The notes beneath the pieces were generated by a model. It saw only the letters and a program-made list of their open reading frames with translations. It had not been told where the DNA came from and ran no database searches. The position numbers and the translations under genes are program-made. This document shows positions 17,358-36,229 of a stretch of 40,076 nt of DNA, in pieces. This stretch comes from a virus. The stretch is from IMG/VR virus record IMGVR_UViG_3300034104_006466, positions 1 through 40,076 of that record, one strand, 5' to 3'. Each line of letters begins with the position of its first letter. Position 1 is the first letter of the stretch.

Positions 17358-17358
17358 T

Positions 17359-18414
17359 TTATTTTTGATTTAGTTGGTTTAATTGTTGAAAGAAAAATTC
17401 TTTTCTTTTTATTTGAAATTCGTTAAATATTCTGACAACCTCAGTGTCGAAATCTTCAGTCATTCTGTAACTATTTGCTGTAGTTTCACCTTCACTATAC
17501 AATGTGGGTAAAACACTATCCTCTAACCATGTTTGTGCAAAATCAGCAATAACATCGACAATTTGTAATGTATTTTCAACCCATACACCATTTTTTTCAT
17601 TCATCCATTCAGGTTTCAAATTTGGAATTTTACCTATTACTGGAATTCCTGACGCCATACACTCTATAGGGAAGGTACCAAACGATGATGTTGAATCTAA
17701 CCATACTCCCAAAAACGCATCATTCATAGCATTTGCAAACTCTTCCTCACTTAAACCTCTAAGGTCTCTAAACGTGAAAAATCTAAATTGAGGATATTTG
17801 AGATAGAAACTTTTAATTAAATTAAGTCCTTCCCTCTGTTCTCTAGTATGAACTAAAATAATTGGTTTTGGTGGATGAGTCTGTTTCACAAAACAATCTG
17901 AAATTGTAGGTCTAATGATATCAAAAGAAACGTTTCTCATTATTTTCGATATTTCTTCCTTTTGAGTCTCAGAAGTAGCGATACATTTATAAAATCCGTA
18001 TTGTTGCCATGTTGCTCCTGGACTCAAAGTTTCTAAAACGTGATCATACGCCTGACAAAGAACAATCTTACCACAAGGTAAATTTTTAACTTGTTCCATA
18101 ACAAATCCGAAAATTTCAGGAATTACCAAAATATCTTCAGGAGCAATTTGTAAATTTGTACCTTCAATCACTTGAAACTCTAATCCTTCGTACTTCCTAA
18201 AAGACCAACTATCTATTGGCATATAATCAGGTTTTTCATACAACATAACAATTTTATATCCATCCTTACTTAAGGAACTAGCAATGTCATAAATGAATCT
18301 AATAGATGCTTTTGCATTTCCTTTAGTGTCTTGAACAAAGAAATATATTTTGTTCGATTTGGTATCTATGTTGTAAAGAGACCTCTGTAGATTTTGTTTT
18401 AAATCTTCACTCAT
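17359..18414 (-). CDS. Glycosyltransferase, GT4/GT1-type GT-B fold
   Basis: The 351-residue product has the two-domain GT-B layout. A first Rossmann half opens KIYFFVQDTKGNAKASIRF. The second half has the EX7E-like donor site SSFGTFPIECMASGIPVIGK at about residues 243-262 (Glu251), followed by NGVWVEN. It probably uses a nucleotide sugar donor in glycan assembly. A 4-nt gap separates it from the 90-residue gene upstream. Its C-terminus is Gln/Leu/Asn-rich (FFFQQLNQLNQK). Confidence 0.8.
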   Translation of the reverse strand: MSEDLKQNLQRSLYNIDTKSNKIYFFVQDTKGNAKASIRFIYDIASSLSKDGYKIVMLYEKPDYMPIDSWSFRKYEGLEFQVIEGTNLQIAPEDILVIPEIFGFVMEQVKNLPCGKIVLCQAYDHVLETLSPGATWQQYGFYKCIATSETQKEEISKIMRNVSFDIIRPTISDCFVKQTHPPKPIILVHTREQREGLNLIKSFYLKYPQFRFFTFRDLRGLSEEEFANAMNDAFLGVWLDSTSSFGTFPIECMASGIPVIGKIPNLKPEWMNEKNGVWVENTLQIVDVIADFAQTWLEDSVLPTLYSEGETTANSYRMTEDFDTEVVRIFNEFQIKRKEFFFQQLNQLNQK

Positions 18415-18418
18415 TTTG

Positions 18419-18691
18419 TTATAATTTTTGAATAAATTTATTAAATAACATAGTGTTCCATGCTAATCTGAAAGAAACACTTAAATCATTAGAATTTTTA
18501 CTTGCGATCATTTTTTCATCAACGGGTTGCATTTCTGAAAAAATTACATCTGTTAAAGTTTTTACTATTTCAAACTTAATTACGGAAATATGTTGATTTT
18601 CACCTGTTCCCGAAAAGTCTGGCCTATCTATAAAATTATCAATTGCGTTGATATTAAGATAGTATTGTTCTCCTAAAACGTCTAGCATCAT
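18419..18691 (-). CDS. Uncharacterised 90-residue protein
   Basis: No family recognised. The product has two hydrophobic-strand/helix blocks and the segment VSFRLAWNTMLFNKFIQKL at its C-terminus. The ATG at 18691 overlaps the stop of the HAD-like gene (ATGA), which supports this start over the next codon, also ATG. It lies inside the glycan run between a GT4 gene and a HAD-like gene, so it may be a small partner of either. Confidence 0.55.
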   Translation of the reverse strand: MMLDVLGEQYYLNINAIDNFIDRPDFSGTGENQHISVIKFEIVKTLTDVIFSEMQPVDEKMIASKNSNDLSVSFRLAWNTMLFNKFIQKL

Positions 18692-19284
18692 ATTAAATTT
18701 TTTACAAGTTCTGAAAGTTCTGTGATCGAACTTATAGAATATTTTATTTTTATATCAGAATTATAAGGTTTTTCGAATTTAATTAAAGTTTTATTTTTGT
18801 TAATTTGTAATAATTCGGGGTCTGTTGTTAATAAAATATCAAATTCTTTCCATATTTTGTTTTTGGTTTTGTTATTATAAAAAACAATTTTTTCAATTTC
18901 ACATCCGAATTTGGATACGAAGAACAAGGTTGCTGGTTTACTTTTACCTACTTGTTTTGAAATTAACAAAAACTCTACTTTACCAAAATACTCTTTATAA
19001 ATTTCATTTAAAATATGAAATGTGCCCATCTCAGTTGATGGGGCATGTCCAAAAATTTGCATAGTAAATTCGTTGAACATAAAGTTATAATATTCGTCGT
19101 CATTTTTAAAATTGAAATGATTTCGGTAATCATTAGTGTTATAAGGTTTATAGATTTCAAATTTGAAATCATCATCGACCAACTCTAATTCATCAATAAA
19201 GAACTTTTGATAAATTTGTTCTATTTTTTCGAATGTATCCCTTAAAACACCTTCTATATCAATTGCTATCCGAACTTTTGCCAT
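18688..19284 (-). CDS. HAD-like hydrolase with altered motif I
   Basis: The 198-residue product begins VRIAIDIEGVLRDTFEK, a HAD motif I in which the usual D-x-D is D9-x-E11. A second-half Lys (VGKSKPATLFFVSKFG) and a late DILLTTDPELL fit HAD motifs III and IV. HAD enzymes are usually phosphatases, often nucleotidase-like in phages. The D-to-E change at the acid/base position would weaken phosphatase activity, so it may be a phosphatase variant or a repurposed binding domain. It overlaps the GDP-mannose-epimerase gene by 26 nt at its 5' end and the 90-residue gene by 3 nt (ATGA). Confidence 0.65.
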   Translation of the reverse strand: MAKVRIAIDIEGVLRDTFEKIEQIYQKFFIDELELVDDDFKFEIYKPYNTNDYRNHFNFKNDDEYYNFMFNEFTMQIFGHAPSTEMGTFHILNEIYKEYFGKVEFLLISKQVGKSKPATLFFVSKFGCEIEKIVFYNNKTKNKIWKEFDILLTTDPELLQINKNKTLIKFEKPYNSDIKIKYSISSITELSELVKNLI

Positions 19285-20401
19285 ACTTTTTTTTGTTTAC
19301 CATTTCTTGAATCCAAGTGTAGGTTTTTTTCATACCATCTCTTAAAGTCATAGAACTTTCCCACCCCACTTTTTCTTTATAAAGTTTATTGTCTGAATTT
19401 CTACCTCTCACACCAGTTGGACACTTGAATCCGTATTTGTTTAAAAATTGATCACCATCAATGTTTGTTATTTTTATATCTTTACCTGAAATATCTATAG
19501 CGATCTGAGCTAATTCATTTATTGAGACCATTTCTTCCGATCCGATATTAACTGGACCTGTGAAATCACTTTTCATAAGTCGTAAAACGGCTTCTACACA
19601 TTCTTCAACATACAAGAAGGAACGTGTTTGTTTTCCATCCCCCCACACTTCAATTTCGTATTCAGGTCTCGTTTGACCTATTATTTTTGTAGCGTCATCT
19701 ATTTCTGCAACTTTCCTACACATGGCTGCTGGTGATTTTTCTTTACCACCAACCCATGTCCCTTGAGGACCAAATATATTGTGAAATCTAGCAATTCTAA
19801 CATTCAAACCATAATTTCGTGCAAATGCGAGAAATAATCTTTCAGAAAATAATTTTTCCCAACCATATTCTGAATCTGGATTTGCGGGATATGCGGATGA
19901 TTCTTCACAATTTGGATTGTCAGGGTCAAGTTGGTTATGTTCAGGATACATACAAGCAGAAGATGAATAAAATAATTTACCAACTTTTGTTTTTACACAT
20001 TCATGAGCAACATTAAGATTTATCATTGCCGAATTATGCATTACATCTGCGTCATGTTCTCCTGTAAAGATGTATCCAGCGCCCCCCATATCAGCGGCCA
20101 ATTGATATACTTCATCAAACCCTATTTCTTTGGAAAAAGGTTGTTTGAGATAGTGAAATGGTTGGGGATAGTTACCATTATTAACTTCTAATCTCATAAC
20201 GGCTTTTACATTGTGAGGATCCCTTAAATCATAAGTAAGAAATTCATCACAAATTTCATTTTCTTTGAAATACTCGTGTTTTTTCAAATCAACGACACGT
20301 ACATAATGTCCTTCTGATTTCAGTCGTTTAGCTAAATGTCCACCTATAAAACCACCACCACCAAGTATCAATATATTTTTATTTTTTCTCATTTTTTTCA
20401 A
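19259..20401 (-). CDS. GDP-mannose 3,5-epimerase
   Basis: GDP-mannose 3,5-epimerase converts GDP-D-mannose to GDP-L-galactose (and GDP-L-gulose). The 380-residue product matches the plant-type enzyme across its length. It has Rossmann GGGGFIG (about 14-20), LAADMGGAGYI, the catalytic pair region YSSSACMYPE (Cys150) with YGWEK (Tyr179, Lys183), RFHNIFGPQGTWVGGKEKSP (Lys222) and the C-terminal GVRGRNSDNKLYKEKVGW. This is a specific, strong family match. The start could be the ATG at 20401 or at 20392; both overlap the upstream gene. It provides an L-galactose-type donor or a precursor for further steps in the glycan cluster, which also contains fucosyltransferase-type enzymes that may accept GDP-L-sugars. 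Confidence 0.9.
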   Translation of the reverse strand: MKKMRKNKNILILGGGGFIGGHLAKRLKSEGHYVRVVDLKKHEYFKENEICDEFLTYDLRDPHNVKAVMRLEVNNGNYPQPFHYLKQPFSKEIGFDEVYQLAADMGGAGYIFTGEHDADVMHNSAMINLNVAHECVKTKVGKLFYSSSACMYPEHNQLDPDNPNCEESSAYPANPDSEYGWEKLFSERLFLAFARNYGLNVRIARFHNIFGPQGTWVGGKEKSPAAMCRKVAEIDDATKIIGQTRPEYEIEVWGDGKQTRSFLYVEECVEAVLRLMKSDFTGPVNIGSEEMVSINELAQIAIDISGKDIKITNIDGDQFLNKYGFKCPTGVRGRNSDNKLYKEKVGWESSMTLRDGMKKTYTWIQEMVNKKKYGKSSDSN

Positions 20402-21470
20402 TTTCTATTAAAACCATATCTTTAATTAAATTTATTAACTTAATTGTGATTCCAGGCCATTCGGGGTAATCTTTTTTAAATTTATTAAAATTTGTTACAT
20501 AGTAAATGTGGTCACCAATTCTATTTTCAGAAATTGTTTCATATTTATTCCACATTTTCCAACCTTCAACATTTTGAAAACAAATATCATTTATTAGTCT
20601 GATAGCTTCTATTATAGAAATAGAGTTTTCTATTCCACCGCCAGCATTATAAACTTCACCTGACTTTGGATTTTGATGAAAATACCAAAACATATTTACC
20701 AAGTCATAAGAATGTATATTGTCCCTCACTTGTTTTCCCTTATATCCATATATTTTATATTCCTTATCGTTAACAACGCACTTAATCAAGTAGGACAAAA
20801 ATCCGTGTAACTCAGTTCCCGCATGATTGGGACCTGTCAAACATCCACCTCTAAAACATACGGTATTCATTCCAAAATATTTTCCATACTCTTGTACTAA
20901 CAAATCGGCAGACAACTTCGAAACTCCAAAAAGTGAATGAAGACATGTATCTACAGACATTTTTTCATCAATAGAGTTTTTATAATTAGAATCATTGAGA
21001 ACAAATCTAAATTCAGTTTCTTTTATTTTTAGTTTATTTGGATTGTCCCCATAAACTTTATTTGTTGAAGTAAAAATAAAAGAAGATTTTGGACAATAAA
21101 TTCGTGTGAGTTCTAATAAATTTAGAGTACCTAAAGCATTAACTTCAAAATCTGTTAGAGGTTCTTTCGCGGCCCAATCATGAGATGGTTGAGCCGCTGT
21201 ATGGATTATAATTTCTATTTGTGAATTAAATTTTTCGAAAATTGATTGTAAATCTGAATAGTTTCTTATATCCAACTCGTAAAATTGAAATAAACTATCG
21301 TATGTTTTCTGTAACATACGAGTGGTTAACTCAGTTGATGCATCTTTACCGAAAAAATAGGATCTCATATGATTGTCTACCCCAATCACAACATAGCCTT
21401 TGTTGATAAAAAATTTTGTTGCTTCAGAACCTATAAGACCAGAAGAACCAGTAACAAGTGCAATTTTCAT
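20379..21470 (-). CDS. NAD-dependent epimerase, CDP-paratose/tyvelose 2-epimerase-like
   Basis: The 363-residue short-chain dehydrogenase/reductase-type protein has TGSSGLIG (about 7-14), HTAAQPSHDWAAKEP, STNKVYGDNP and LFGVSKLSADLLVQEYGKYF, then FRGGCLTGPNHAGTELHGFL and YGYKGKQVRDNIHSYDL. These blocks match proteins annotated as CDP-paratose 2-epimerase in cyanobacteria and others. The usual catalytic YxxxK is FGVSK here (Phe181, Lys185); from memory that substitution is common in this subfamily. It likely interconverts a nucleotide-linked sugar, possibly a dideoxy sugar; no dTDP or CDP pathway gene for the precursor is seen in the window. It overlaps the methyltransferase gene by 4 nt (ATGA). 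Confidence 0.82.
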   Translation of the reverse strand: MKIALVTGSSGLIGSEATKFFINKGYVVIGVDNHMRSYFFGKDASTELTTRMLQKTYDSLFQFYELDIRNYSDLQSIFEKFNSQIEIIIHTAAQPSHDWAAKEPLTDFEVNALGTLNLLELTRIYCPKSSFIFTSTNKVYGDNPNKLKIKETEFRFVLNDSNYKNSIDEKMSVDTCLHSLFGVSKLSADLLVQEYGKYFGMNTVCFRGGCLTGPNHAGTELHGFLSYLIKCVVNDKEYKIYGYKGKQVRDNIHSYDLVNMFWYFHQNPKSGEVYNAGGGIENSISIIEAIRLINDICFQNVEGWKMWNKYETISENRIGDHIYYVTNFNKFKKDYPEWPGITIKLINLIKDMVLIEIEKNEKK

Positions 21471-22075
21471 TTAGGATTTTTTTTGAAAAAATAATCAATT
21501 CCAACATTACTATGAAAATAATATCCTTTAGTTACTAAAAATTCCTCAAACTTGGATTCAAAAAAATTATTTTCAACACAAATTAAGTCTATATTATAAT
21601 TCTCGAAATCAATTTTTTGTAAAATTTGTAATTCAGAACCTTCAGTATCGATTGACATAAAATCAATATTTTTGTTTTGGACAATTGATTCAAATTTCAA
21701 AGCTTCGATTTCAATTAGGTCTGAAGTACCACCATCTCTTCGTAATTCGTGTTGAATTCTTTGATAATGTTTTGGGTCATATGATTCATAGATACCGCTC
21801 AACATCTCTGTTGGTCCTGTGAGAACTAAAAATTTAACTTTGGTATTTTCGTTCCATACCGCACAATTTACACTTTTACATTTACGATTTTGAATCAATC
21901 TTTGAAATACTTTTGGGTGAGGCTCGATACAAATTCCTTCCCACCCCAAACTTTCTAACATTTTGGTATTATTGATTGAAATTCCATCGTGTGCTCCTAC
22001 ATCGACGAAAAAACCTTTAGTTTTATGTCCGAAAATATCAAGTAACTTTTTTTCAACTTGTTCTAAATGTGTCAT
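21467..22075 (-). CDS. FkbM-type methyltransferase (first of three)
   Basis: FkbM-family enzymes are SAM-dependent O-methyltransferases that often decorate sugars. The 202-residue product has the N-terminal SAM loop FVDVGAHDGISINNT (about 23-37), IEPHPKVFQRL, NCAVWNENT and the family's acidic motif MSIDTEGSELQILQKIDF (about 140-157). These are the standard FkbM blocks. It sits between the epimerase and a GT10-type gene with a 6-nt gap. Confidence 0.85.
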   Translation of the reverse strand: MTHLEQVEKKLLDIFGHKTKGFFVDVGAHDGISINNTKMLESLGWEGICIEPHPKVFQRLIQNRKCKSVNCAVWNENTKVKFLVLTGPTEMLSGIYESYDPKHYQRIQHELRRDGGTSDLIEIEALKFESIVQNKNIDFMSIDTEGSELQILQKIDFENYNIDLICVENNFFESKFEEFLVTKGYYFHSNVGIDYFFKKNPK

Positions 22076-22081
22076 TTCTGT

Positions 22082-22915
22082 TTAATTTACAATTTTATTC
22101 AAAATTTCATTTACTCTGTCTGAATAAAAAGCATAGTTAGAATTAGTAATTTCATAATTTTCCTTAACAGCATCCAACCTTTTGTAATAATCATCAGGTG
22201 TCAAGTTATCGAGTATATGTTCTAATTCTTCTTTTGTTTCGAAAAAAATAATACCATCTTTGTTAAAATACTCGGATATATTTGGACAACCCCAATAAAT
22301 CGGGATGGTATATGACATGAAACAATCAACTACTTTTTCACTAATGTAGTTGATATTTTTTGTATTCTCGATGGCTATGTGGAACATTGCGTGTTCGAAT
22401 AACTCGTATTTTTTTTCCATTTCTATTGATGGTGGAAAAAAAACTTCTAAGCTCCTAGGTTTTCGGATTAATTCCGCAGTGTTGTGTCTTAGATTATGGC
22501 CTAGAAGATAATTTTTGTTGCTCATAACGTGACTCAACAGAAATCTTTTATTTGTGTCGAAAATATTATAGTATTCGTTTCTGTGATTTGCTCTTGTTTT
22601 ATCCTCTCGGGTTAAAATCCAACAAGACGCATACAAAAACAATTCTGAATTTTCACAACTAGATAAAACCTCAGGGTAAGAGGTTAATATTTTGTCGAAT
22701 TGTTTGTGATAATAAATTACTTCAGCAGTTATATTATTAATTTCTTTAGGTTCCATACCCTGTATCAAAATCAATAAATCGTAAAATTTTCTGTCATTAG
22801 GTAAAATATAAAAAAAGTACTGTGGATTAGGGTCGATAATTAATTTTATTTTTTTATCTGTATCACAGAAAAAAAAGTCGCCTGGACAACCGTGTGGGGA
22901 GTAAACTGGTAACAT
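22082..22915 (-). CDS. Glycosyltransferase family 10 (alpha-1,3-fucosyltransferase-like)
   Basis: GT10 enzymes move L-fucose from GDP-fucose to N-acetylglucosamine or glucose units. The C-terminal half carries the diagnostic block: FHIAIENTKNINYISEK, then VVDCFMSYTIPIYWGCPNIS and DGIIFF (about 180-232). The N-terminal half has the LIDPNPQYFFYILPND-like region seen here as IIDPNPQYFF. At 277 residues it is shorter than typical GT10 proteins (~350). A 3-nt gap separates it from the next gene. The donor is probably GDP-fucose or another GDP-L-sugar; no fucose-synthesis genes are in the window, so the donor may be made by the host. Confidence 0.83.
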   Translation of the reverse strand: MLPVYSPHGCPGDFFFCDTDKKIKLIIDPNPQYFFYILPNDRKFYDLLILIQGMEPKEINNITAEVIYYHKQFDKILTSYPEVLSSCENSELFLYASCWILTREDKTRANHRNEYYNIFDTNKRFLLSHVMSNKNYLLGHNLRHNTAELIRKPRSLEVFFPPSIEMEKKYELFEHAMFHIAIENTKNINYISEKVVDCFMSYTIPIYWGCPNISEYFNKDGIIFFETKEELEHILDNLTPDDYYKRLDAVKENYEITNSNYAFYSDRVNEILNKIVN

Positions 22916-22918
22916 AAT

Positions 22919-23632
22919 TCAAATTTTAAGGTTTTTCCATGTAGATAATGGTGGATGCCAAAAAGGTAAATAATAAACATGATTTTTGTTCAATAAAGCG
23001 GCAGTATAACTGAAAGAACCTTTTGACATGATGAAGTGGTTAGAAAAAACTAAATCTGAAAACGTATCTTCTATAGGTTCATTTAAATGGAACTCGATAA
23101 GTTGGTAATTAAACTTGGAGAAATTATCAATGTTCCCTTGAGAGTATATTTTGATTTTTTCTATATCTTTATATTCCTTGAGTACTAAATCGATACTTTT
23201 CAAGTAATAATCATCAGATTCGTATCCATAATCACCGATGTCGAATTGGTTAGCCCTTCTGATGTGTACGGACATTATGTTTTCATCCGATTTAGTTTTA
23301 TTATTGTAAAATAGTTCTGAGATTTTTTTAAATGAATCACTGTTCAAGAGTAAATCCAATCTTTGTTCTACTTCCCAATAAATTTTTTGTAATGGAACAT
23401 TTATTAGTTTTTTGGGGTTTATTTCCCTAACAGATTTATAATTATTTTTTATGTTTATAAATTTTTCTTTTTTTTCTAAGAATAATTCATCATTATCATA
23501 GTTGTGTGCGATAGAAGTAAATGGTGTATAAACAAATTCTAAATTATAAAGTCCTGCGTAAAGTATTGTGAATATAACAGTTTGATACTGAGCCCCAAAA
23601 CCATCATCTCTTAACGCGTTAGTAATATACAT
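22919..23632 (-). CDS. Fucosyltransferase-like protein (GT11-type motifs)
   Basis: The 237-residue product has the HxRR motif SVHIRRANQF (about 121-130), and a C-terminal FIMSKGSFSYTAALLN block equivalent to the 'S-x-F-S-x-x-A-A' motif of GT11 and related GT-B fucosyltransferases. The N-terminus GFGAQYQTVIFTILYAGLYN corresponds to the 'GRLGNQ-x-FQYA' block of GT11. It is more diverged than the GT11 protein at 30347-31222. It is 3-4 nt from both neighbours, so translation is coupled. Confidence 0.72.
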   Translation of the reverse strand: MYITNALRDDGFGAQYQTVIFTILYAGLYNLEFVYTPFTSIAHNYDNDELFLEKKEKFINIKNNYKSVREINPKKLINVPLQKIYWEVEQRLDLLLNSDSFKKISELFYNNKTKSDENIMSVHIRRANQFDIGDYGYESDDYYLKSIDLVLKEYKDIEKIKIYSQGNIDNFSKFNYQLIEFHLNEPIEDTFSDLVFSNHFIMSKGSFSYTAALLNKNHVYYLPFWHPPLSTWKNLKI

Positions 23633-23635
23633 GTA

Positions 23636-24358
23636 TTATTCTGGTAATATGATATGTTTAATTGAATTTTTTAAATTTAAAAAATTTCTGTTAAAAAATG
23701 TAGCCATTATACCCCATTTAATGCACTCGAACCCCTGACTCTCCAAGTATTTTTTAATATTTTGAGGCTTTTCATCATTAGAATATTGATTATAAGTTGA
23801 GGTTTCGACATCTATGTAAATTACTTTATCCTTGAGATAGTGTTCAGCACCGATCAAAATATTGAAATCTGATGATTGAGCATCTACTTTGAGATGCTCT
23901 ATGTAATCAAATCTATGCCAAGGAAAATAATCAAAAAAAGATTTTAAAGTAATTACAGGGATTTTAGTTATTTTTTTTATACCAAAATAATTTGGTTTAA
24001 ACAAACTAGAAGTTCCTGAATCACCATCTGTACAATAAAAATCTTCTTGGTCCGAAATGTAATTGGAAAGTGCACAATTCAAGTAAAAAAATGATTGTCC
24101 AATTCTGTTCGGGTCCAAATGATACTCCCAAACTTTATCCCCCCTATGTAAATGTTCTATATTGAAAATGTTCGGTTCAAATCCAAATACACAGACATCA
24201 TTATCTTCGTTAATCCAAACTTCAGAATTTGGAGCATTTATCGAAAGACCTACATCTATTTTAATTTTTTTTGTCCATTCAGGTACATAAATTAAACCGT
24301 CTTGTATTAATGGACTGAGAATATCCAATACTTTTTTTTCTATATGAGTATGTTCCAT
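23636..24358 (-). CDS. FkbM-type methyltransferase (second)
   Basis: The 240-residue product has the FkbM-type core in a diverged form: IKIDVGLSINAPNSEVWI (about 33-50), VFGFEPNIFNIEHL, YLNCALSNY and HLKVDAQSSDFNILIGA, the last equivalent to the acidic 'IKIDVEG-x-E' block with Asp-Ala-Gln. The substitution of Glu-Gly by Ala-Gln-Ser-Ser differs from the other two copies, so substrate or activity may differ. It overlaps the nucleotide-sugar dehydrogenase gene by 19 nt. Confidence 0.68.
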   Translation of the reverse strand: MEHTHIEKKVLDILSPLIQDGLIYVPEWTKKIKIDVGLSINAPNSEVWINEDNDVCVFGFEPNIFNIEHLHRGDKVWEYHLDPNRIGQSFFYLNCALSNYISDQEDFYCTDGDSGTSSLFKPNYFGIKKITKIPVITLKSFFDYFPWHRFDYIEHLKVDAQSSDFNILIGAEHYLKDKVIYIDVETSTYNQYSNDEKPQNIKKYLESQGFECIKWGIMATFFNRNFLNLKNSIKHIILPE

Positions 24359-25563
24359 GGGTCTATAATTATTTTTGATTTAAATAGTTCACTATACTTT
24401 TGAAATAAATTAACATTTGTATGAGCTAACACAACAACATCAGACCTATCCAAGAATATCTCAAATTCATTTGATTTGAAATCCGTTTCAACTAAATCAT
24501 CACAACCTAACACTTTATAATTATTATTTTTGAGATGTTCATATAAAATATATGAAGCGGATTCTGTAGTCACTGCTGTATTTGGTTTGAAAGAAAGTCC
24601 AAAAATTCCGATGACTTTATCAGAAAATTTACTCACATTTTCTATCAATTTTTTATTTTGGTTTTCATTTATTTTTTGAGTAGCAATAATATGTTCGGCT
24701 CTTAATCCTAATTTTTCTGACAAATTTATGAATGCCCAGGTATCTCTAGGAAAACACGTCCCGCCAAATGACAATCCACTTCTAAAGTAATATGGCGAAA
24801 TACGCTTATCAAAACCCAAAGCTTTAGTGATATTTTTGGTGTTACAATTCAATTTTTCGGAGATGTTTCCTAAAAAATTGGCAAAACTAATTTTCATTGT
24901 AATATAGGCATTGAGACTTACTTTGCAAATTTCAGATTCAATCAGAGACATTTTTACTATTGGGGCATTGTTTTTTAAAATTTTTCGATAAATAGATTCC
25001 CCTATGTCTCCGTATTTTTCATCTGATTGTCCCATAATCAATACATCAGGATTTTCAAAATCATAGATTACGTTCCCTAGAGCAACAAGATCTGGTATGT
25101 ATAATAGTCCAAATCCATGATTGAGTTTTCTAAATGAATTATGTTCAATAATCCTGACTATTTCTTTATGAGTTTCAGGCATAACAGTAGAACTTATTAT
25201 AAACAAAAAATCATCACTTTGACAATTTTGAAGAGATTTTGCAATTGTTTCTACGGATTGATATACATAGTCGTTAGAGAATGTGCCGTCGGAATTGGAG
25301 GGGGTATTAACTAAAATTATTGCAACATCTGTTTCAGAAACTAAACGAGAGGTATTAGTTTCTACCGTTATATTACTGATATATCTGTTATAATATTCTT
25401 CTAAATTAGGTTCATAAAACGGGACTTTATTTTGTTTTAACAGATTAATTTTATTTTCATCAATATCAAAACCAATAATTTTTTGTCCGTTTTTTGCAAA
25501 GGTTACAAGTAATGGTAAACCCAATTTACCAAGACCAACTATACTAATTTTTTCAGTTCTCAT
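24340..25563 (-). CDS. UDP-glucose/nucleotide-sugar 6-dehydrogenase
   Basis: The enzyme oxidises the C6 hydroxyl of a nucleotide sugar to the uronic acid with NAD (UDP-glucose to UDP-glucuronate, or related substrates). The 407-residue product has Rossmann VGLGKLG (about 9-15), the conserved FDIDENKI, the EPNL block, the Lys/Asn active-site segment SEICKVSLNAYITMKISFAN (Lys214, Asn218) and the catalytic cysteine motif GGTCFPRD (Cys270). The C-terminal Rossmann-like domain (about 315-407) has FGLSFKPNTAV. All key residues look intact. It overlaps the aminotransferase gene by 4 nt (ATGA), so an acid sugar is likely made for the same glycan. Substrate (glucose, GlcNAc or ManNAc type) cannot be fixed from sequence. 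Confidence 0.88.
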   Translation of the reverse strand: MRTEKISIVGLGKLGLPLLVTFAKNGQKIIGFDIDENKINLLKQNKVPFYEPNLEEYYNRYISNITVETNTSRLVSETDVAIILVNTPSNSDGTFSNDYVYQSVETIAKSLQNCQSDDFLFIISSTVMPETHKEIVRIIEHNSFRKLNHGFGLLYIPDLVALGNVIYDFENPDVLIMGQSDEKYGDIGESIYRKILKNNAPIVKMSLIESEICKVSLNAYITMKISFANFLGNISEKLNCNTKNITKALGFDKRISPYYFRSGLSFGGTCFPRDTWAFINLSEKLGLRAEHIIATQKINENQNKKLIENVSKFSDKVIGIFGLSFKPNTAVTTESASYILYEHLKNNNYKVLGCDDLVETDFKSNEFEIFLDRSDVVVLAHTNVNLFQKYSELFKSKIIIDPWNILI

Positions 25564-26666
25564 AATTTATCATTTATCTCCTTCAATGCTTTATAAACAG
25601 ATTCGTTGTCTTCTTCAGTACCACAAGCTATTCTTAAAAAAGAATCATCCAAATCTAGTTTATCATTTAAAATTCTAGTATAAATTTTTTTTTCAAATAA
25701 TAAATAAGAAAATACTTTATTGACATTTTCAAAACAATCAAGAATAAAAAAGTTAGCATAAGATTTATAAACTTTAAATTTCTCAAGTTTTAATAATTTT
25801 GTATAAAACTTTTCTCTATTGTCCAAATATTTTTCTCTTGCTTTCTGATAATTTTGTTTGAAAACAGAGTCATTCATCAATTCTAGGAATATTTGAGCAA
25901 GCCCATTTATGTTCCAACACAAACCATATTTCGAAAAAATTTTATTACTTATTTTAGGGTCACAAACTGAATATCCTAACCTTAAACCCGCAATTCCAAA
26001 ATCCTTTGATAAGCTTCGGATGACAATTAAATTTTTATTAGAATAAACTTCAGTCTCTACACTATGAGATTTATCAAAAAAATCTATAAAACTTTCATCA
26101 ACTACAATCGAAACTTTTTTTAATTCTTTAATAATATATTTGATGTCTTTTTTTTTCATAATTGTTCCAGTAGGATTATTTGGATTAACTATAATCAGGA
26201 CTTCAACATGATTATTAATACAAAAATCTACTAAACTTTTTTTATCTACTTGAAAATTACTTTCTTTGTGAGTCTTGAAAAAAACTATGTTTTCAATATC
26301 GTATTCATAATAAGTTGAAAAAGTGGGTGTTATAATACATTTTTTTTTACCCTCAAATTCTCTCATTATAAGTTCAATAAGTTGGATTGCCCCATTACCA
26401 ATTAACAAATATTCTGGATTTATATCAATATTTTTTGATAATAAATTCGATAAAATTTTGTTTTGGGGCGGATAATACTTGATGTAGTCGGTTAAATCTA
26501 TTTTTTTAAAATTATCCATAAAGAGTTCAAACGCATATGGATTACACAGAAAACATGCATCAACTGAAACATCTATTTTTAAATTTTTTTTTAACTCATA
26601 TACAGACGGGGAGTGTAAACCAGAATCTGATTTGAGTTTTAAAAACTTTTCATAACTATTGTTCAT
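25560..26666 (-). CDS. PLP-dependent aminotransferase, class I/II (HisC/CobD-like)
   Basis: The 368-residue product carries class I/II motifs: IIVNPNNPTGTIM (about 158-170), VVDESFIDF (about 188-196), and the PLP lysine in RSLSKDFGIAGLRLGYS (Lys221). Length and motifs resemble histidinol-phosphate aminotransferase or the threonine-phosphate decarboxylase group. In a phage glycan cluster it may transaminate a small keto compound or make an amine or amino acid used to modify the glycan. It overlaps the CapK-like ligase by 4 nt and the dehydrogenase by 4 nt, which groups these three genes. Confidence 0.83.
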   Translation of the reverse strand: MNNSYEKFLKLKSDSGLHSPSVYELKKNLKIDVSVDACFLCNPYAFELFMDNFKKIDLTDYIKYYPPQNKILSNLLSKNIDINPEYLLIGNGAIQLIELIMREFEGKKKCIITPTFSTYYEYDIENIVFFKTHKESNFQVDKKSLVDFCINNHVEVLIIVNPNNPTGTIMKKKDIKYIIKELKKVSIVVDESFIDFFDKSHSVETEVYSNKNLIVIRSLSKDFGIAGLRLGYSVCDPKISNKIFSKYGLCWNINGLAQIFLELMNDSVFKQNYQKAREKYLDNREKFYTKLLKLEKFKVYKSYANFFILDCFENVNKVFSYLLFEKKIYTRILNDKLDLDDSFLRIACGTEEDNESVYKALKEINDKL

Positions 26667-27997
26667 ATTAAAGAAACTGTTTTGAATTTATTTGAATTTT
26701 GATCTCTATCTAAATGATCTTTCTTATGGATAATGATATGTACATTACCTAACCTGTTTTTCATTTCTTCTATCAATTTATTTTCCAAATCCTCAGTATA
26801 ATTATAATTTGGAACTATGTAAAAATCTACATCTTTGGTTTCCCTTTTTTGAATTATTTGAAATAAGTCAACACAATCATATTTTGACATAAAGGAATAA
26901 AAATTGACGGCAGGAACAAGTGAGTCTTTTTCAGTAATTAACATATCTCCATTTCGACCTACTATAGTTTTGATTGTTTTTGGAAACGCCCCATCCAAAA
27001 TCGGGTTTTCTACTTTTTCAATTTTGTCGTTAGTTCGGTATCTAATTAAAGGCATAACTTTGTTATAAAAACTAGAACCTATTATTATATTATTTTCGTC
27101 ATATTCTGTGAATGAATATATTAAATTTTCCTTGTAATTGTCATCCTGATTATCTTGGTGAGAGAATGCAACTTTTTCTACTTGACCATAGTGCATTCTC
27201 AATTTTATTCCAAATGTGTCATATATTAGTTCTTGCCATTGTGGTAAACACATTTCAGACGCACCATGAATATACTTTAAATGAGGCACTTTCAAACTAT
27301 ATTTTCGACACAACAAAGCGAAATAATAAATGGTGGATGGGTATGAAACTAATATTTTCGACTTTTCTTTATTAAAATAATCAACATATGAAAAAATAGT
27401 TTTGTCATTTAAATGAAATGCTGACATATAACTACGATTCAGTTCATAATCTTTAAAAAAAATTGGGTCACCTTCATTTGGTGAATATCTTCTTATCCAT
27501 ATCGAATGATCCTGGTATAGTTTTGCTTGATGATCTAAATAGGCGTTTTCAATAATCGCACATTCTATTTTGAACAATTCATCTGAACCTAATACAACTA
27601 ATCTTTTACCTGTGGTTCCCGAAGTACTCATTTTATATTTTTTACCTTTATAATCTAAAGAAATTAAATCTTGATAATTTTGGATTATCAAATCTTTTGT
27701 AAGTTCAGGTAAATTTTTTAAATCATCAAAATCTTTAATGTTTGGGTTGAACCCATACTGTTGAAACATTTTTTGGTAATATGGAACGGATAGATTACAA
27801 TATTGCAACATAGTCCTCAACACATTTAGTTGATATATTTTAGTCTCGTCATATGACCACGTTTTTGATTTTTTGATTAAGGACCAAAAATCGTTATAAA
27901 CTCTACCATACCGATGTTTAAATGGTATTACTTTGTAAACTATTCGTTTAACCAAATCTGGTTGTTTGTCGATTAAAAATTTTAAAGTACTAGCCAT
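26663..27997 (-). CDS. CapK/PaaK-like adenylate-forming ligase
   Basis: The 444-residue product matches the phenylacetate-CoA-ligase-like (CapK) family often found in capsule loci. It has a long N-terminal helical region (about 1-110), the ATP/AMP loop YKMSTSGTTGKRLVV (about 121-135) and RRYSPNEGDP, then ISYPSTIYYFALLCRKYSL-type sequence and YIHGASEMCLP, and a small C-terminal lid from about 350. These enzymes activate a carboxylate with ATP. Combined with the aminotransferase and the uronate-forming dehydrogenase, an amide on a uronic acid is a reasonable inference. Confidence 0.8.
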   Translation of the reverse strand: MASTLKFLIDKQPDLVKRIVYKVIPFKHRYGRVYNDFWSLIKKSKTWSYDETKIYQLNVLRTMLQYCNLSVPYYQKMFQQYGFNPNIKDFDDLKNLPELTKDLIIQNYQDLISLDYKGKKYKMSTSGTTGKRLVVLGSDELFKIECAIIENAYLDHQAKLYQDHSIWIRRYSPNEGDPIFFKDYELNRSYMSAFHLNDKTIFSYVDYFNKEKSKILVSYPSTIYYFALLCRKYSLKVPHLKYIHGASEMCLPQWQELIYDTFGIKLRMHYGQVEKVAFSHQDNQDDNYKENLIYSFTEYDENNIIIGSSFYNKVMPLIRYRTNDKIEKVENPILDGAFPKTIKTIVGRNGDMLITEKDSLVPAVNFYSFMSKYDCVDLFQIIQKRETKDVDFYIVPNYNYTEDLENKLIEEMKNRLGNVHIIIHKKDHLDRDQNSNKFKTVSLI

Positions 27998-28637
27998 TTT
28001 TCTTTCTAAAAAAATAATTTTCGGTATCTAATATTAAAAAATTTTCGTAGTTGAGTTCGTTCATTAAATCGAAAATATTTTTTGATGTATAGCCCCTTGT
28101 CTCAAGAGCATGATTAACTTCCACACAAATGACGATATTGTTTTTCAACAACAGATCAAACCCACCCAAAAGAATTTCATAATCATAACCATCGGCATCT
28201 ATTTTAATAAAATTTGGTATAATTTTGTTTACACTTGAATACACATCCAAAGTTGTAAAATTGAAAACATCTTCGATTGGGGTTTCCTCCCAAATTTTGT
28301 ATATTTTTTCAATTAAAGACCCATGTTTATTACCAAATCCTAATTTTTCTGTTTTTACAGAAGTTATATTGTTTTTTTGTAGATTTGGTATTAAATATTT
28401 TTCATAGGTGTCTGTAGGTTCAAAAGAATAAACATACAAGGATTTTTGACTGAATAAAATACTATAGAGACCCACATGAGATCCAATATCAAAAATTATG
28501 TCATTTTTTTTTAAATTTTTAAGAAACCAATCTCTTGTTTGAGGTTCTACGTGTTTACCATTATCTGAATAGTAATATTCAAAAATAGGATAAAAATCCA
28601 AATGAAAAACCTTATTTTCAATTTGAAGTTGAATCAT
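27990..28637 (-). CDS. FkbM-type methyltransferase (third)
   Basis: The protein (215 residues from the ATG at 28637; a longer frame reaches 28670) has FDIGSHVGLYSILFS as SAM loop, YSFEPTDTYEKYL, FGNKHGSL and PNFIKIDADGYDYEILLGG, all FkbM blocks. The later start is preferred because it shortens the overlap with the next gene to 20 nt. Together with the copies at 21467 and 23636 it makes three FkbM-type genes in one cluster. Confidence 0.82.
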   Translation of the reverse strand: MIQLQIENKVFHLDFYPIFEYYYSDNGKHVEPQTRDWFLKNLKKNDIIFDIGSHVGLYSILFSQKSLYVYSFEPTDTYEKYLIPNLQKNNITSVKTEKLGFGNKHGSLIEKIYKIWEETPIEDVFNFTTLDVYSSVNKIIPNFIKIDADGYDYEILLGGFDLLLKNNIVICVEVNHALETRGYTSKNIFDLMNELNYENFLILDTENYFFRKKNG

Positions 28638-29205
28638 CTTCTGTTTGTTTTGGATAAATGAAAATAACACCTGAGTTCACACAATCAATTTCTTTGTTGT
28701 AATGAAATTCGTACGAACCATATATTTTTTTTAGTTTAGGTTCTATAAAATCTATACAAAGTTTTTGATCACCATATTGGTCATAACCAAATTTAGCGTT
28801 TCCGAACTCATCTGGTACAAAAAAATCGTGAATTATTATTACAGGTTTGATTCCTTTTTTCGAAATAGCATCTAACTCTTCCAAAAGCGGTAAAGGTTCT
28901 GGACTCCAATGAGAATCTATAAAAAACAAATAGTTTTCATTTTTTTTGATTTTCATAGAATTCAAGAAATCAATACTATTCGAATTGTGTAGTTTTAAAT
29001 TTTCATTGACGAGATTTTTTTTTGCGTGAATATAAAATTCTGAATTAACTTCGACTGATTCTACTGGTAGACCAAAAGTACAAATAATTTTTGTTGACCA
29101 TCCCAAATAAGTCCCCGTCTCTATAATTTTATTTATATTAAACCTTTGTATTATGTTAGAAAATTCTTCATATAATTTTTTGTCTTCCAAAGCCCCTTTT
29201 TCCAT
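28618..29205 (-). CDS. Class I SAM-dependent methyltransferase-like protein
   Basis: The 195-residue product has the early glycine-containing motif KIIETGTYLGWSTKIIC (about 25-41), an acidic strand end ESVEVNSEF, and FFIDSHWSPEPLPLLEEL (about 94-111), typical of class I methyltransferases of the type found beside sugar genes. The segment IDSHW suggests a metal-dependent sugar O-methyltransferase type, but I cannot name a family. It lies 3 nt after the HAD-glycosyltransferase gene. Confidence 0.65.
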   Translation of the reverse strand: MEKGALEDKKLYEEFSNIIQRFNINKIIETGTYLGWSTKIICTFGLPVESVEVNSEFYIHAKKNLVNENLKLHNSNSIDFLNSMKIKKNENYLFFIDSHWSPEPLPLLEELDAISKKGIKPVIIIHDFFVPDEFGNAKFGYDQYGDQKLCIDFIEPKLKKIYGSYEFHYNKEIDCVNSGVIFIYPKQTEDDSTSN

Positions 29206-29208
29206 TGT

Positions 29209-30354
29209 TTATAATAAATTTAAATATATTTCATCCCAATTTTGATATGGTGAAATACAATATTCACTCTCATTGTAATTTTGGAGTTGTTTATGGTCTA
29301 ATTCTACAACATCATCATGGAGTATCATTCGTCCTTCTTTACTTACAGCAATTTCTGGTTTTCTAACAAAATCATAATGGTAGATAAGGTATTTTTGAGC
29401 CCAATTGAATACACCTTTGTATTTTTTTTTCAGAACTAAAAACATAAAATTATCACATGTAGGCGCGCTCCCAACAGGAATTGTAAAAGGAAAATCATCT
29501 TCTGTTATTTTGATAGGTGTTTTAAAACACCAAGCATCAGCGAATTCACCTCGATTCCATGCTTTTTCATCTCTGAATTGTATAACATCATTAATGTATT
29601 CCGTCCTTGATAAAGCTAAACAAACTTTATTATCAACACGGTCAAAAAAATCTTGTTTAATTGTAACCCATTCGGGAATCGTAGGAATAAAAATATCTAA
29701 ATTCATAACTAGAACCACCTTATCTTCAGGTACCAATTTTTTTGTATATTTAATGAAATTATTAAATGTAAATCTATTGGAGTTTTCAAGTACTACTGAT
29801 ATTTTAGAAGAATTATCTAACTTACATTTTATAAAATCCTCAAAGTAATATAAATTATCATTATAGACTATCTCATTACAAACTAAAAATATTTTCTCAA
29901 CTGTTGGGTTAGTGATATTTTTTTTAATACAAAACAAATATTCTTCCAATCTTGATGGATTTTTTTCAACAAAAATTTCACAAAAAATTATAATTTTGTT
30001 ATTATCAATTACTTTGTATTTGTGATCATCTTTTTTTTTGAAGAAAATTTCGGAGTTAACACCTTTATCGTCTACAAATAAATCGCCATTGAATTTTACA
30101 CCAGTTCTCAATTCATGAAATTTCAGACCAAATGCAACTAGTTGATTATAGGTCACCTCATACCAATTTTTTTTGGAAACACAACCCCTTGCCGTTTCTA
30201 TTATAATATAATTACCACTTTCAAAAAGTTTATTAACGATTTCGATACGTTCTAGGATCGGTCGAGAATTTAAATAATCCCAATTCCCTTCTTCGTTTTT
30301 TTCAGTTAAACAAAGTGTGTTATCTAAATCAAAGACATATTTCATTTTATTCAT
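29209..30354 (-). CDS. Fusion: HAD-family phosphatase plus glycosyltransferase-like domain
   Basis: The N-terminal ~105 residues are a HAD phosphatase of the capsule-biosynthesis type: KYVFDLDNTLCLTEK (motif I, Asp9/Asp11), IIIETARGC (motif II), the basic KFNG segment and GDLFVDDKGVNSE (motif IV). Residues ~110-381 look like a glycosyltransferase GT-A-like domain with VVLVMNLDIFIPTIPEW as a likely DxD-type site and a C-terminal ISPYQNWDEIYLNLL. The two would act on phosphorylated sugar precursor and on transfer, respectively, but the second half is only a weak match. The gene overlaps the GT11 gene by 8 nt. Confidence 0.7.
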   Translation of the reverse strand: MNKMKYVFDLDNTLCLTEKNEEGNWDYLNSRPILERIEIVNKLFESGNYIIIETARGCVSKKNWYEVTYNQLVAFGLKFHELRTGVKFNGDLFVDDKGVNSEIFFKKKDDHKYKVIDNNKIIIFCEIFVEKNPSRLEEYLFCIKKNITNPTVEKIFLVCNEIVYNDNLYYFEDFIKCKLDNSSKISVVLENSNRFTFNNFIKYTKKLVPEDKVVLVMNLDIFIPTIPEWVTIKQDFFDRVDNKVCLALSRTEYINDVIQFRDEKAWNRGEFADAWCFKTPIKITEDDFPFTIPVGSAPTCDNFMFLVLKKKYKGVFNWAQKYLIYHYDFVRKPEIAVSKEGRMILHDDVVELDHKQLQNYNESEYCISPYQNWDEIYLNLL

Positions 30355-31222
30355 TTTTGTACCTTATCCAATTTTCATATCTATAAACCTCTTCACTATT
30401 GTTCTGTAATGACCAACCCCACCACTTATCTGGCATAAAAATTTTCTTTTCTTTATTCAAAGGATTAATCCATGCGGCCCACCAGGAAAAAGTACTAACA
30501 CCCATTATATTCGTATCACAAACCGACATCAAAGAAAAATCTTTAAGATGGGACAGGTTTGAGTTTCTGTTGTCGACAAAAATAACATTCTGGGCGTCAA
30601 ATTGACTTTTACACCAATCAATATCGTCAGAAAAAATTAAAATCATATCATCAACATTTGTATTTTCTTTTAGAATTAATTTATAGTATGTATCAATTGA
30701 TAAACCGGCATTGAATGCGTGATTATCCATTGTTAAATCCCCTCTTCTTATATGGACTGAAATTATTTTATCATAATTTTTTTTTAGTGTCTCCAAAAAA
30801 TTACTTGCATAATCGAAATACTCATCATTTAATTTTAATTCGTTTTGAAGTTCGACTTTAAATACGTCAACATATTCTTTTGCTTGAAAATATCCATGCA
30901 AACAAGTCCCATCTGACAACTCCCAAAACTCAGGATAATATTTTATTTCAGGTGCTTCATAGTGATAAGTTTTGATTTTACTTCTGATTAAATCTGATGG
31001 TTTTTTTTCACCAAACTTTAGATTAAACAATTTAAAAAGATCGTTGTTGTAAATATCCACTTTACCTATTGTTGGATTATATCTTCCGTGTTGACAGGTT
31101 TCTGTTTCTGAAGGAATCCAAAGTTCAGTATTTAATTTTTTTGCAAGACTGAAAGCTGCGGCATATTGGAAAATTTGATTCCCCAATCGTCCATATTTCC
31201 CAATCGTCATATTAGTAATCAT
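30347..31222 (-). CDS. Alpha-1,2-fucosyltransferase (GT11)
   Basis: GT11 enzymes transfer L-fucose (or, in some, other GDP-L-sugars) in alpha-1,2 linkage. The 291-residue product has all diagnostic blocks: YGRLGNQIFQYAAAFSLAKK (about 10-29), SVHIRRGDL (about 155-163) with the HxRRGD core, LIFSDDIDWCK and NIMGVSTFSWWAAWI (about 238-252). Length is normal for the family. It is coupled to neighbours by a 4-nt (ATGA) overlap upstream and an 8-nt overlap downstream. Together with the GT10 and GT11-like genes at 22-23.6 kb, it points to a highly fucosylated product. Confidence 0.93.
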   Translation of the reverse strand: MITNMTIGKYGRLGNQIFQYAAAFSLAKKLNTELWIPSETETCQHGRYNPTIGKVDIYNNDLFKLFNLKFGEKKPSDLIRSKIKTYHYEAPEIKYYPEFWELSDGTCLHGYFQAKEYVDVFKVELQNELKLNDEYFDYASNFLETLKKNYDKIISVHIRRGDLTMDNHAFNAGLSIDTYYKLILKENTNVDDMILIFSDDIDWCKSQFDAQNVIFVDNRNSNLSHLKDFSLMSVCDTNIMGVSTFSWWAAWINPLNKEKKIFMPDKWWGWSLQNNSEEVYRYENWIRYKNE

Positions 31223-31944
31223 ATATCAATTGATGTCAATTTTGGTTTATTTCTTATTTCATCAGCAGATTTCCATTGTACATCGATTCCTCCTGCAGCA
31301 CTTTGGGTTTTATGGTCGTTATAAGGTGATGTTTCATTATAAACATATAACACTTTATTTATAAATTTGTAGTGTTTCTTACCACAAAGTTCTAATAATG
31401 GAAAACAATAAGCCACATCCGCCGCTGATTTATAATAATTACCATTATTATCCAAAAAATTTTCTTTTGGAATGTTTTTCCATAAAAAAGATTTCCAAGT
31501 CCGTAAATGAGAAAATCTAAAAACATCAGTCCTGATTGTATCAGGACTACATTCTTGCGAAAACCCCATAGTACCATCACTAAACATAAAAGAACCATTG
31601 GTTAACCAAGTGTTACCATCTGAATAAATTTTATTTATTAAACTTAAAACATCATCACCTAACAAAAAATCGTCAGCGTCGACTTCTACTACGATATCCT
31701 CATCATCAAAATTAGAAATTAATTCATCTAAATTTCTTAGTTTAAATTTTTTTTCAGTATTTTCTATTAGTTTAAACCGGTCGTCGTTATGTATTAATTC
31801 TTTTAATAATTCTGAGCCGTTATCTTCTGACATATCGTCAATTAAAAAAACTTGAAAATCTTTATAATTTTGAATTTTTAAACTATCAATATAAGTTTTC
31901 AAATAATTTTTTGCATTCCAAAAACAAGAAACAACTTTAATCAT
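31219..31944 (-). CDS. Glycosyltransferase family 2
   Basis: The 241-residue product is a GT2 with KVVSCFWNAKNYLKTYIDSL, QVFLIDDMSEDNGSELL (first acidic motif) and VVEVDADDFLLGDDVL (DxD, about 85-100). An SPDTIRTDVFRFSHLRTW segment follows. GT-A fold, cytoplasmic. It overlaps the GT11 gene by 4 nt; the fusion glycosyltransferase upstream ends one base before it starts. Confidence 0.88.
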   Translation of the reverse strand: MIKVVSCFWNAKNYLKTYIDSLKIQNYKDFQVFLIDDMSEDNGSELLKELIHNDDRFKLIENTEKKFKLRNLDELISNFDDEDIVVEVDADDFLLGDDVLSLINKIYSDGNTWLTNGSFMFSDGTMGFSQECSPDTIRTDVFRFSHLRTWKSFLWKNIPKENFLDNNGNYYKSAADVAYCFPLLELCGKKHYKFINKVLYVYNETSPYNDHKTQSAAGGIDVQWKSADEIRNKPKLTSIDI

Positions 31945-31945
31945 A

Positions 31946-33589
31946 CTATATTTGGTAATTAATTAATTTATAATATTTATCCTCAATTAATTCAACAACA
32001 ACATTACTGTCAAACTTATTTAATTCCTCATTCGATGGTGGAATAATTAAATTTTTATCTAGAATATTACCTGAAGAATCTACTTTATAAATCCAAGCGG
32101 GTTTTCCACAAAACCAACTTTCAATGGTAGTACGACCTAATAAAATTCCCGCAGTCTCACTAGCTCTTTTAATGAAGTCTTCAGTTTTCCATGTCGAGTT
32201 AAAATATTTAACATGTGTATTTTTCAATATATCCTGTAAATAGTTTGATTTATTATCACCGACTAGCCATAATTCTTTACCATTTTCTTTGGTGTAAGAA
32301 ATTAAATCTTTAATTGTATTTTCTCTTAAATAATCAATACTACCGACAAACAAGACTGCGTTTTCTACATTTGTGTTTTTATTTGAGAACCGATTCTTAT
32401 CTACAGGATTATAAATAACCGAAGTTTTATCTTTAGGTATTTCGTAAACATCAATTATGTGTTGTTGAATTTCAGGTCGTATACAAATGTACTCTCTAAT
32501 CGTATCATTGATAACTGGTTTTTCTAAACTTATTACTTCTGAATGTATTGTAGAAATTTTTGGTATATTGGGATAAAGTTGACAAATAAAATTTGTTGTA
32601 GGTTCATGTTGAACATGAATAATGTCGAAGTTTACTTCAGAAACTTTGTACATTGTATTTGGAGTCGAAACGACCATACCTTGTGGAGTATTTAAACTCC
32701 ATTTACCATCACCTAACTTGAATCCTGGAGGTTCTTGCAATGAATATGTTTTAATACCAAGTCTCTTGGCCATATCCTCAAGAGGTTTTCCAACATCCGA
32801 AAGCACGGTAACATCATGACCTAACCCAACCAATGTTCGTGCTAACTCATAGACATAAACTTCAGATCCTGTAAATGTTTTAAAAAAAAGACAAGAAAGG
32901 AGAATCTTAAGTTTTTCGGTCTTTTTTTTGGGTACGATTTTGGGTAATTCATTAGAATATCTTTCACTAAATTGTATTCTATTTCTTTCCCATTTTTCAT
33001 TGGTCATACCAATCGATTTATGAGTTACTCTGATATCGAACATAACTCCAATTTGTACTCCTTCCAAAAAATTTTGGAATGAAAAATTTACATCATAAAA
33101 ATGAAAACCTTCTACAGTTTCATCAAATCTTTTTTTAATCCTAGACTTACTCAAACAAATAAATAATCCATCGACGACAACTACGTCTTTTAATTTATCA
33201 CCTAGACTTGAACTGTACTTTGATTCCCACTTTTTACCTTCACTTTCATGGTTGACTATTCCATACATTTTACTCCTATCTTCCCACCACATTCCACTTT
33301 TTGGCATATGACTAGTACCTGCTAGACCTATTATACCATGTGGATTTTTTTCGAAATGTCTGACTAATTTTTTGACCCAATTTTTAGTGTCGAAATAAAT
33401 GTCATCGTGACACAATACTACAATATCGTTTGTAGATTCTTCGAGTATTTCATTATAGACTTCTGTTAATGAACGTCCATCGGGATTTACTTTTTCAATA
33501 ATCTCGATTTTAGGATGTCCACTTGATTTACGAAGTAATTCTTTGAAATCCTCGGAAGATTTTCTTGTACTATATCCTACTGTTATCAT
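31946..33589 (-). CDS. Fused glycosyltransferase: GT2-like plus GT4-like domain
   Basis: The 547-residue product joins two enzymes. Residues ~1-215 are GT2-like with ITVGYSTRKSSEDF and NDIVVLCHDDIYFD (acidic site about 61-67), and VDGLFICLSKSRIKKRF. Residues ~228-547 are GT4-type GT-B, beginning KILLSCLFFKTFTGSEVYVY and containing IIHVQHEPTT, LFVGSIDYLRENTIKDL and the donor-site-like GILLGRTTIESWFCGKPAWI. A bifunctional enzyme adding two sugars in turn is plausible. The next gene (dUTPase) ends 2 nt before its start. Confidence 0.85.
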   Translation of the reverse strand: MITVGYSTRKSSEDFKELLRKSSGHPKIEIIEKVNPDGRSLTEVYNEILEESTNDIVVLCHDDIYFDTKNWVKKLVRHFEKNPHGIIGLAGTSHMPKSGMWWEDRSKMYGIVNHESEGKKWESKYSSSLGDKLKDVVVVDGLFICLSKSRIKKRFDETVEGFHFYDVNFSFQNFLEGVQIGVMFDIRVTHKSIGMTNEKWERNRIQFSERYSNELPKIVPKKKTEKLKILLSCLFFKTFTGSEVYVYELARTLVGLGHDVTVLSDVGKPLEDMAKRLGIKTYSLQEPPGFKLGDGKWSLNTPQGMVVSTPNTMYKVSEVNFDIIHVQHEPTTNFICQLYPNIPKISTIHSEVISLEKPVINDTIREYICIRPEIQQHIIDVYEIPKDKTSVIYNPVDKNRFSNKNTNVENAVLFVGSIDYLRENTIKDLISYTKENGKELWLVGDNKSNYLQDILKNTHVKYFNSTWKTEDFIKRASETAGILLGRTTIESWFCGKPAWIYKVDSSGNILDKNLIIPPSNEELNKFDSNVVVELIEDKYYKLINYQI

Positions 33590-33591
33590 AA

Positions 33592-36199: not shown

Positions 36200-36204
36200 A
36201 GTTA

Positions 36205-36229
36205 TTTCTTAGACTAAAAAACTAAGAAA
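36205..36229 (-). promoter_or_regulatory. Inverted repeat just upstream of the glycan-run start
   Basis: TTTCTTAG (36205-36212) and CTAAGAAA (36222-36229) form a perfect 8-bp inverted repeat around a 9-nt A/T loop. On the minus strand it ends 5 nt before the ATG at 36199. There is no T tract after it on either strand, so it is not a standard terminator; an operator or a translation-blocking hairpin is possible. Confidence 0.35.

Follow-up and report, generated by a model that had tools for sequence, protein, structure and literature searches.

What would a T4-like phage make with a nucleotide-sugar dehydrogenase, a PLP enzyme and an ATP-using ligase encoded in one run? The question is raised by the virus record IMGVR_UViG_3300034104_006466, of which the whole 40,076 nt (hereafter the window) were analyzed. 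Its plus strand carries genes for a gp20-type portal, a gp21-type protease and a gp23-type capsid protein, and its minus strand a long series of genes for glycosyltransferases (GT10/GT11-like enzymes among them), FkbM methyltransferases and sugar-nucleotide enzymes. An earlier note on this DNA had proposed that the three enzymes form a module for an amide-linked uronic acid. The features on which the argument depends are the following:

24340-25563, minus strand: nucleotide-sugar 6-dehydrogenase, 407 aa (TIGR03026, 300 bits)
25560-26666, minus strand: PLP enzyme, type 1, 368 aa; proposed L-serine-phosphate decarboxylase yielding ethanolamine phosphate
26663-27997, minus strand: PaaK-type (ANL) ligase, 444 aa; proposed uronate-ethanolamine phosphate amide ligase
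30031-30354, minus strand: HAD phosphatase domain, the N-terminal part of ORF 29209-30354
19259-20401, minus strand: GDP-mannose 3,5-epimerase homologue (2c59, 4.2e-91)
20404-34234, no strand assigned: exchangeable glycan cassette, replaced en bloc in the near-identical phage L011

The three ORFs of the run are intact, and both junctions between them are ATGA, in agreement with the 4-nt overlaps described before. The tight unit proposed for them holds as regards these junctions, but transcription proceeds from the ligase through the PLP enzyme to the dehydrogenase, which thus comes last and not first. The trio is not isolated either, as it continues gaplessly into the flanking glycan genes, which it overlaps by 8 nt upstream and by 19 nt downstream. 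The trio itself is real; what the three-enzyme module had missed is a fourth part, the small HAD phosphatase encoded upstream. Elsewhere among the glycan genes, a GT2-like and a GT4-like glycosyltransferase part share the single ORF 31946-33589.

The ligase belongs to the PaaK type

By sequence, motifs and fold, the ligase is a member of the ANL superfamily, of the PaaK type. The STSGTTGK motif (residues 124-131) is present as motif A3 at 27605-27628, the A10 lysine is K437 (codon 26687-26689), and motifs A3, A5, A7, A8 and the A10 lysine are kept, with small variations, in 16 aligned phage ligases. The NCBIfam models FlxY (2.7e-18) and PaaK (1.1e-11) were matched, as was PaaK in the PDB (1.7e-7; by profile 5.9e-16), and the deep structural search suggested earlier, run with Foldseek on an AF2 model of moderate confidence (pLDDT 67.9), led to PaaK1 (1.6e-16). 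The former label "CapK-like" therefore stands as far as the PaaK/ANL type goes, but the protein scores far below the phenylacetate-CoA ligase model (PaaK equivalog TIGR02155, 43.9 bits against a cut-off of 646.3).

Direct amide formation has a precedent within the PaaK-type structural family, because ClxA joins an acid and an amine to an amide via an adenylate, without CoA (PMC12519233). The direct amide ligases NatL2, AjiA1 and ClxA share the PaaK-type fold and the adenylation motifs with the phage ligase; they act, however, on aromatic acids and are 13-16% identical to it in structural alignment, and the phage ligase, unlike them, has sugar enzymes as neighbors.

A viral scan with the ligase as a single sequence gave no match, whereas an alignment-based scan found matches, and a scan of 398 genomes from the phylum of G003 returned three (E values of 5e-43 to 8e-40). 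No close relatives of the queried ligases were found in 50,697 annotated phage records, where the best matches were 22-27% identical. Together with a limited literature search, these records agree with the earlier remark that nothing of this kind was known to have been described for phages.

The PLP enzyme groups with serine-phosphate decarboxylases

The PLP enzyme belongs to the family Aminotran_1_2 (6.7e-37), and its PLP lysine is indeed Lys221, within SLSKDFG (codon 26004-26006). The best solved relative is 6oux (6.5e-67, the next one reaching 3.4e-27), which we take to be SMUL_1544 and whose sequence agrees with a Sulfurospirillum protein annotated as the serine-O-phosphate decarboxylase of norcobamide biosynthesis; the window enzyme is 35-36% identical to it and 36-40% to Campylobacter enzymes. 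In a maximum-likelihood tree, the window enzyme and three close phage relatives (type 1) group with 6oux, Bacteroidota and Cj1436-like enzymes (100/96), with CobD and a thinly sampled HisC falling outside this clade, and other phage enzymes (type 2; loci L008, L009, L011 and L012) group with a Bacteroidota enzyme and Cj1437-like enzymes (98/94). The window enzyme stays below the equivalog cut-offs of both CobD (TIGR01140, 186 of 290.6 bits) and HisC (TIGR01141, 183 of 276.6 bits); across NCBIfam, type 1 tends narrowly toward CobD and type 2 toward HisC, neither passing the cut-off.

Judged from these sequence comparisons, the window PLP enzyme is most likely an L-serine-phosphate decarboxylase that makes ethanolamine phosphate, and the tree and the grouping with 6oux favor this function over the aminotransferase assumed in the earlier note. 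According to that note the enzyme would produce another amine or an amino acid, for instance by transamination, for coupling to the uronic acid; bacterial polysaccharides offer a precedent, in which uronic acids bear amino acids in amide linkage. Membership of the fold type I aminotransferase family and the nearly equal HisC and CobD scores fit this alternative, but we consider it unlikely in view of the clear placement within the serine-phosphate decarboxylase clade and of the phosphatase of the module, which would be needless for an amino acid.

Two further roles were rejected. Canonical HisC was ruled out for the window enzyme by the tree and the scores, a HisC-like role being retained for the type 2 enzymes of L008-L012, and cobamide synthesis was ruled out since the window lacks cobamide genes. 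The likeness to the norcobamide enzyme consists in the common PLP clade, and the gene for 6oux, in contrast to that of the window enzyme, belongs to a cobamide operon. Genome searches with the PLP alignment gave no match at first but did so when repeated. In a polysaccharide locus of Fusobacterium vincentii (L014, 5206-7038), a single ORF combines a nucleotidyltransferase-like domain with a CobD-like PLP domain.

The dehydrogenase and its possible sugar donors

The dehydrogenase belongs to UDPG_MGDP_dh_N (4.8e-38), and its TIGR03026 score exceeds the curated cut-off of 189.8 bits. Cys270 lies in GGTCFPRD as previously placed (codon 24754-24756); C270, K214, N218 and D274 are invariant, and the catalytic Thr, Lys, Asn, Cys and Asp are all retained. 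The protein falls below the cut-offs of the UDP-glucose 6-dehydrogenase equivalogs AglM (216 of 670 bits) and TuaD (182 of 700 bits), the usual glutamates of UDP-glucose dehydrogenases are absent, and PDLVALG stands where Campylobacter dehydrogenases show PEFLREG. Because of this replacement, and because the GDP-mannose 3,5-epimerase homologue is steadily nearby (most loci from the dehydrogenase scan described below have it close to the module), the choice of donor is wide: UDP-glucose and GDP-mannose are candidates, as are other sugar nucleotides. Cyanophage relatives of the epimerase homologue carry the label UDP-glucose 4-epimerase or a similar one, so that GDP-L-galactose-type sugars may be common, under wrong names, in marine T4-like phages.

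A small HAD phosphatase completes the module

The HAD domain of the window is 71-77% identical to free-standing HAD proteins of about 105 residues, whose genes lie immediately before the ligase gene in L008-L012; two small genes separate HAD and ligase in the window, whereas they adjoin directly in those five loci. The motifs DxDxT, the conserved Thr and DD are retained in 11 sequences. The nearest solved relative, both by profile (7.2e-12) and by AF2 with Foldseek, is 9iqw, a phage-encoded D-arabinose 1,5-diphosphate phosphatase (AfhF) that acts on a sugar diphosphate; a search for literature on AfhF found none. A sugar phosphate could thus still be the substrate of the HAD domain. We favor an amide phosphate because bacteria hold other phosphatases (a HAD protein of PF12710, a PHP protein) beside the ligase.

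The module recurs in other phages

Searches of viral contigs for the PLP enzyme and for the ligase yielded eight more phage contigs with the trio in the same order (the L010 contig stops inside the PLP gene) and with ligase identities down to 45%, so that the arrangement is not a chance one. With the dehydrogenase as query, 80 loci were obtained, and in 17 of them its counterpart is 38% or more identical to the window protein; three of these begin within the module, leaving 14 complete loci. HAD and ligase lie close to the related dehydrogenase in 13 of the 14, six of the 13 being contigs already recovered by the ligase or PLP scans, and occur together in none of the 63 loci with less similar dehydrogenases, a difference for which Fisher values overstate the evidence since the loci share a common descent. 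Eleven of the 13 loci also possess a PLP gene, either type 1 or type 2; in L153 (6364-9197) and L155 (6284-9302) it is absent while HAD, ligase and dehydrogenase are present, and the amine may be supplied there by the host or by another part of the phage genome. HAD, ligase and dehydrogenase thus make up the core, and the PLP gene is exchangeable. No TupA-type ATP-grasp ligase (PF14305) was found in the 80 phage loci.

Related ligases in Bacteroidota

The five closest Bacteroidota ligases score more than 240 bits with the phage profile. Each has a phosphatase as a neighbor, and four have a PLP gene there as well (type 1 in L124, L230 and L231, type 2 in L123); the fifth locus, L122, is at a contig end. 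With ligases below 210 bits, in contrast, neither a phosphatase nor a type 1 or type 2 PLP gene accompanies the ligase in any of 11 loci, some of them on short contigs. As the five loci show just two layouts, they do not count as five independent cases. Their gene neighborhoods nevertheless support, from a separate group of organisms, an amine phosphate as the probable substrate of the ligase.

Three of these loci hold a free-standing cassette of three genes, for PaaK-type ligase, Cj1436-like PLP enzyme and HAD phosphatase (L124, 7093-10210; L230, 4333-7503; L231, 790-3916), and an asparagine-synthetase-like gene lies near it in L124 and L230. The cassettes have no adjoining dehydrogenase, and the acid partner may therefore differ there. 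This fits the alternative that the phage ligase, too, activates a different acid (acyl or hydroxy, for instance) and attaches it to an amine or sugar, or makes a CoA thioester, as PaaK-type ligases mostly do, with the dehydrogenase acting for another sugar within the glycan. The company of ligase and this dehydrogenase clade in all but one of the complete phage loci speaks against it, and we hold it to be improbable.

A parallel to the capsule of Campylobacter jejuni

The amide chemistry of the C. jejuni HS:2 capsule offers a model for the phage module. According to two reports (PMC11800397, PMC12409886), Cj1441 oxidizes UDP-glucose; Cj1438 amidates glucuronate in an ATP-dependent reaction with serinol phosphate or ethanolamine phosphate; Cj1437 makes serinol phosphate by transamination of dihydroxyacetone phosphate; Cj1436 makes ethanolamine phosphate by decarboxylation of serine phosphate; and Cj1435 dephosphorylates the amide. 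In the locus L015, from a Campylobacter sp. MAG, genes follow one another for a dehydrogenase, a UDP-galactopyranose mutase-like protein, a fusion of GT2 with a TupA-type ATP-grasp part (PF14305, 7.5e-35), two PLP enzymes (the first HisC-like, the second 6oux-like) and a HAD phosphatase. This row fits Cj1441, Cj1438, Cj1437, Cj1436 and Cj1435 in their numbering and published functions, the Cj names being given to these and other Campylobacter genes by gene order and family and not from NCTC 11168 sequences.

The phage loci resemble the HS:2/HS:19 pathway in that a dehydrogenase, Cj1436/Cj1437-like PLP enzymes, an ATP-dependent ligase and a HAD phosphatase are encoded together. They differ in the ligase, which is PaaK/ANL in the phage and a non-homologous TupA-type ATP-grasp enzyme (Cj1438C) in C. 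jejuni; in the HAD protein, which is of a different, smaller type; in the altered dehydrogenase motif; and in holding one PLP type per locus in these lytic-type phages, where C. jejuni HS:2/HS:19 has both.

From gene content, families, motifs, phylogeny and conserved neighborhood we infer the substrates, the product and the order of the steps, and consider it probable that the cassette makes a uronic acid capped with an ethanolamide, by way of ethanolamine phosphate, the PaaK-type ligase and HAD dephosphorylation. The dehydrogenase would oxidize an NDP-hexose to an NDP-uronic acid, and the PLP enzyme would decarboxylate L-serine phosphate to ethanolamine phosphate. The ligase would adenylate the carboxylate of the uronic acid, probably once this is on the glycan, and couple ethanolamine phosphate to it, after which the HAD domain would strip the phosphate from the phospho-amide. 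The chemistry would be that of the HS:2 capsule with a PaaK-type ligase in place of the TupA-type ATP-grasp enzyme, and in sister phages a HisC-like aminotransferase in the PLP slot would give serinol phosphate and hence a serinol amide. The amide-linked uronic acid of the earlier note has thus gained strong comparative support, with ethanolamine phosphate as the proposed amine and the HAD phosphatase as an addition.

Cassette exchange and the carrier of the glycan

The DNA of L011 is 97.8% identical to the window over 16150-20403 and 96.4% over 34235-36219; between these flanks it is diverged (65-74%) or absent, the region corresponding to L011 1989-13044. The L011 cassette encodes HAD, ligase, dehydrogenase and a type 2 PLP enzyme. 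If the assignments hold, the window would specify an ethanolamide and L011 a serinol amide. We tentatively propose, with somewhat more doubt than confidence, that in this exchangeable glycan cassette the PLP swap is a serotype-like switch between the two amides in phages that are nearly the same otherwise, carried out with a ligase family for which sugar amidation is not known. The swapped region also includes a dUTPase gene (33592-34287) that is extended N-terminally by about 95 residues and is only 59% identical in L011.

A hydropathy scan of the window found no membrane segments in the glycan genes and two borderline ones in ORFs 11635-13128 and 13344-15428, so that the window shows no sign of a flippase, polymerase or exporter encoded by the phage itself. 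Our first guess for the carrier of the glycan, itself inferred, is virion proteins. Modification of the host surface through host export is possible by analogy with pelagimyophages, for which it has been proposed (PMC7029224). The accessible text of that report describes a variable host-recognition/glycan region with glycosyltransferases and a UDP-glucose 6-dehydrogenase; the likeness lies in a variable glycan region in a T4-like phage, and the amide module, unlike in the window, is unmentioned in that text.

Modification of the phage DNA, instead of protein or a cell-surface glycan, is less likely and, to our mind, very improbable. The T4-like nature of the phage, the nearest HAD structure being a phage-encoded D-arabinose 1,5-diphosphate phosphatase, and glycan genes without a predicted membrane protein would suit it, but the glycosyltransferases, FkbM and GT10/GT11-like enzymes and the GDP-mannose epimerase resemble oligosaccharide assembly, and a simple motif scan of the loci, most of them partial, revealed no nucleotide hydroxymethylase.

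Should the ethanolamide reading prove true, uronic acid amides, known as decorations of bacterial (Campylobacter) capsules, would be made by phages as well. A PaaK-type ligase family, present in Bacteroidota as well, would then acquire a function and be newly tied to sugar amides, providing a free-standing alternative to Cj1438C for chemoenzymatic use, and the window and L011 would form a clean natural comparison for the role of variable phage glycans.
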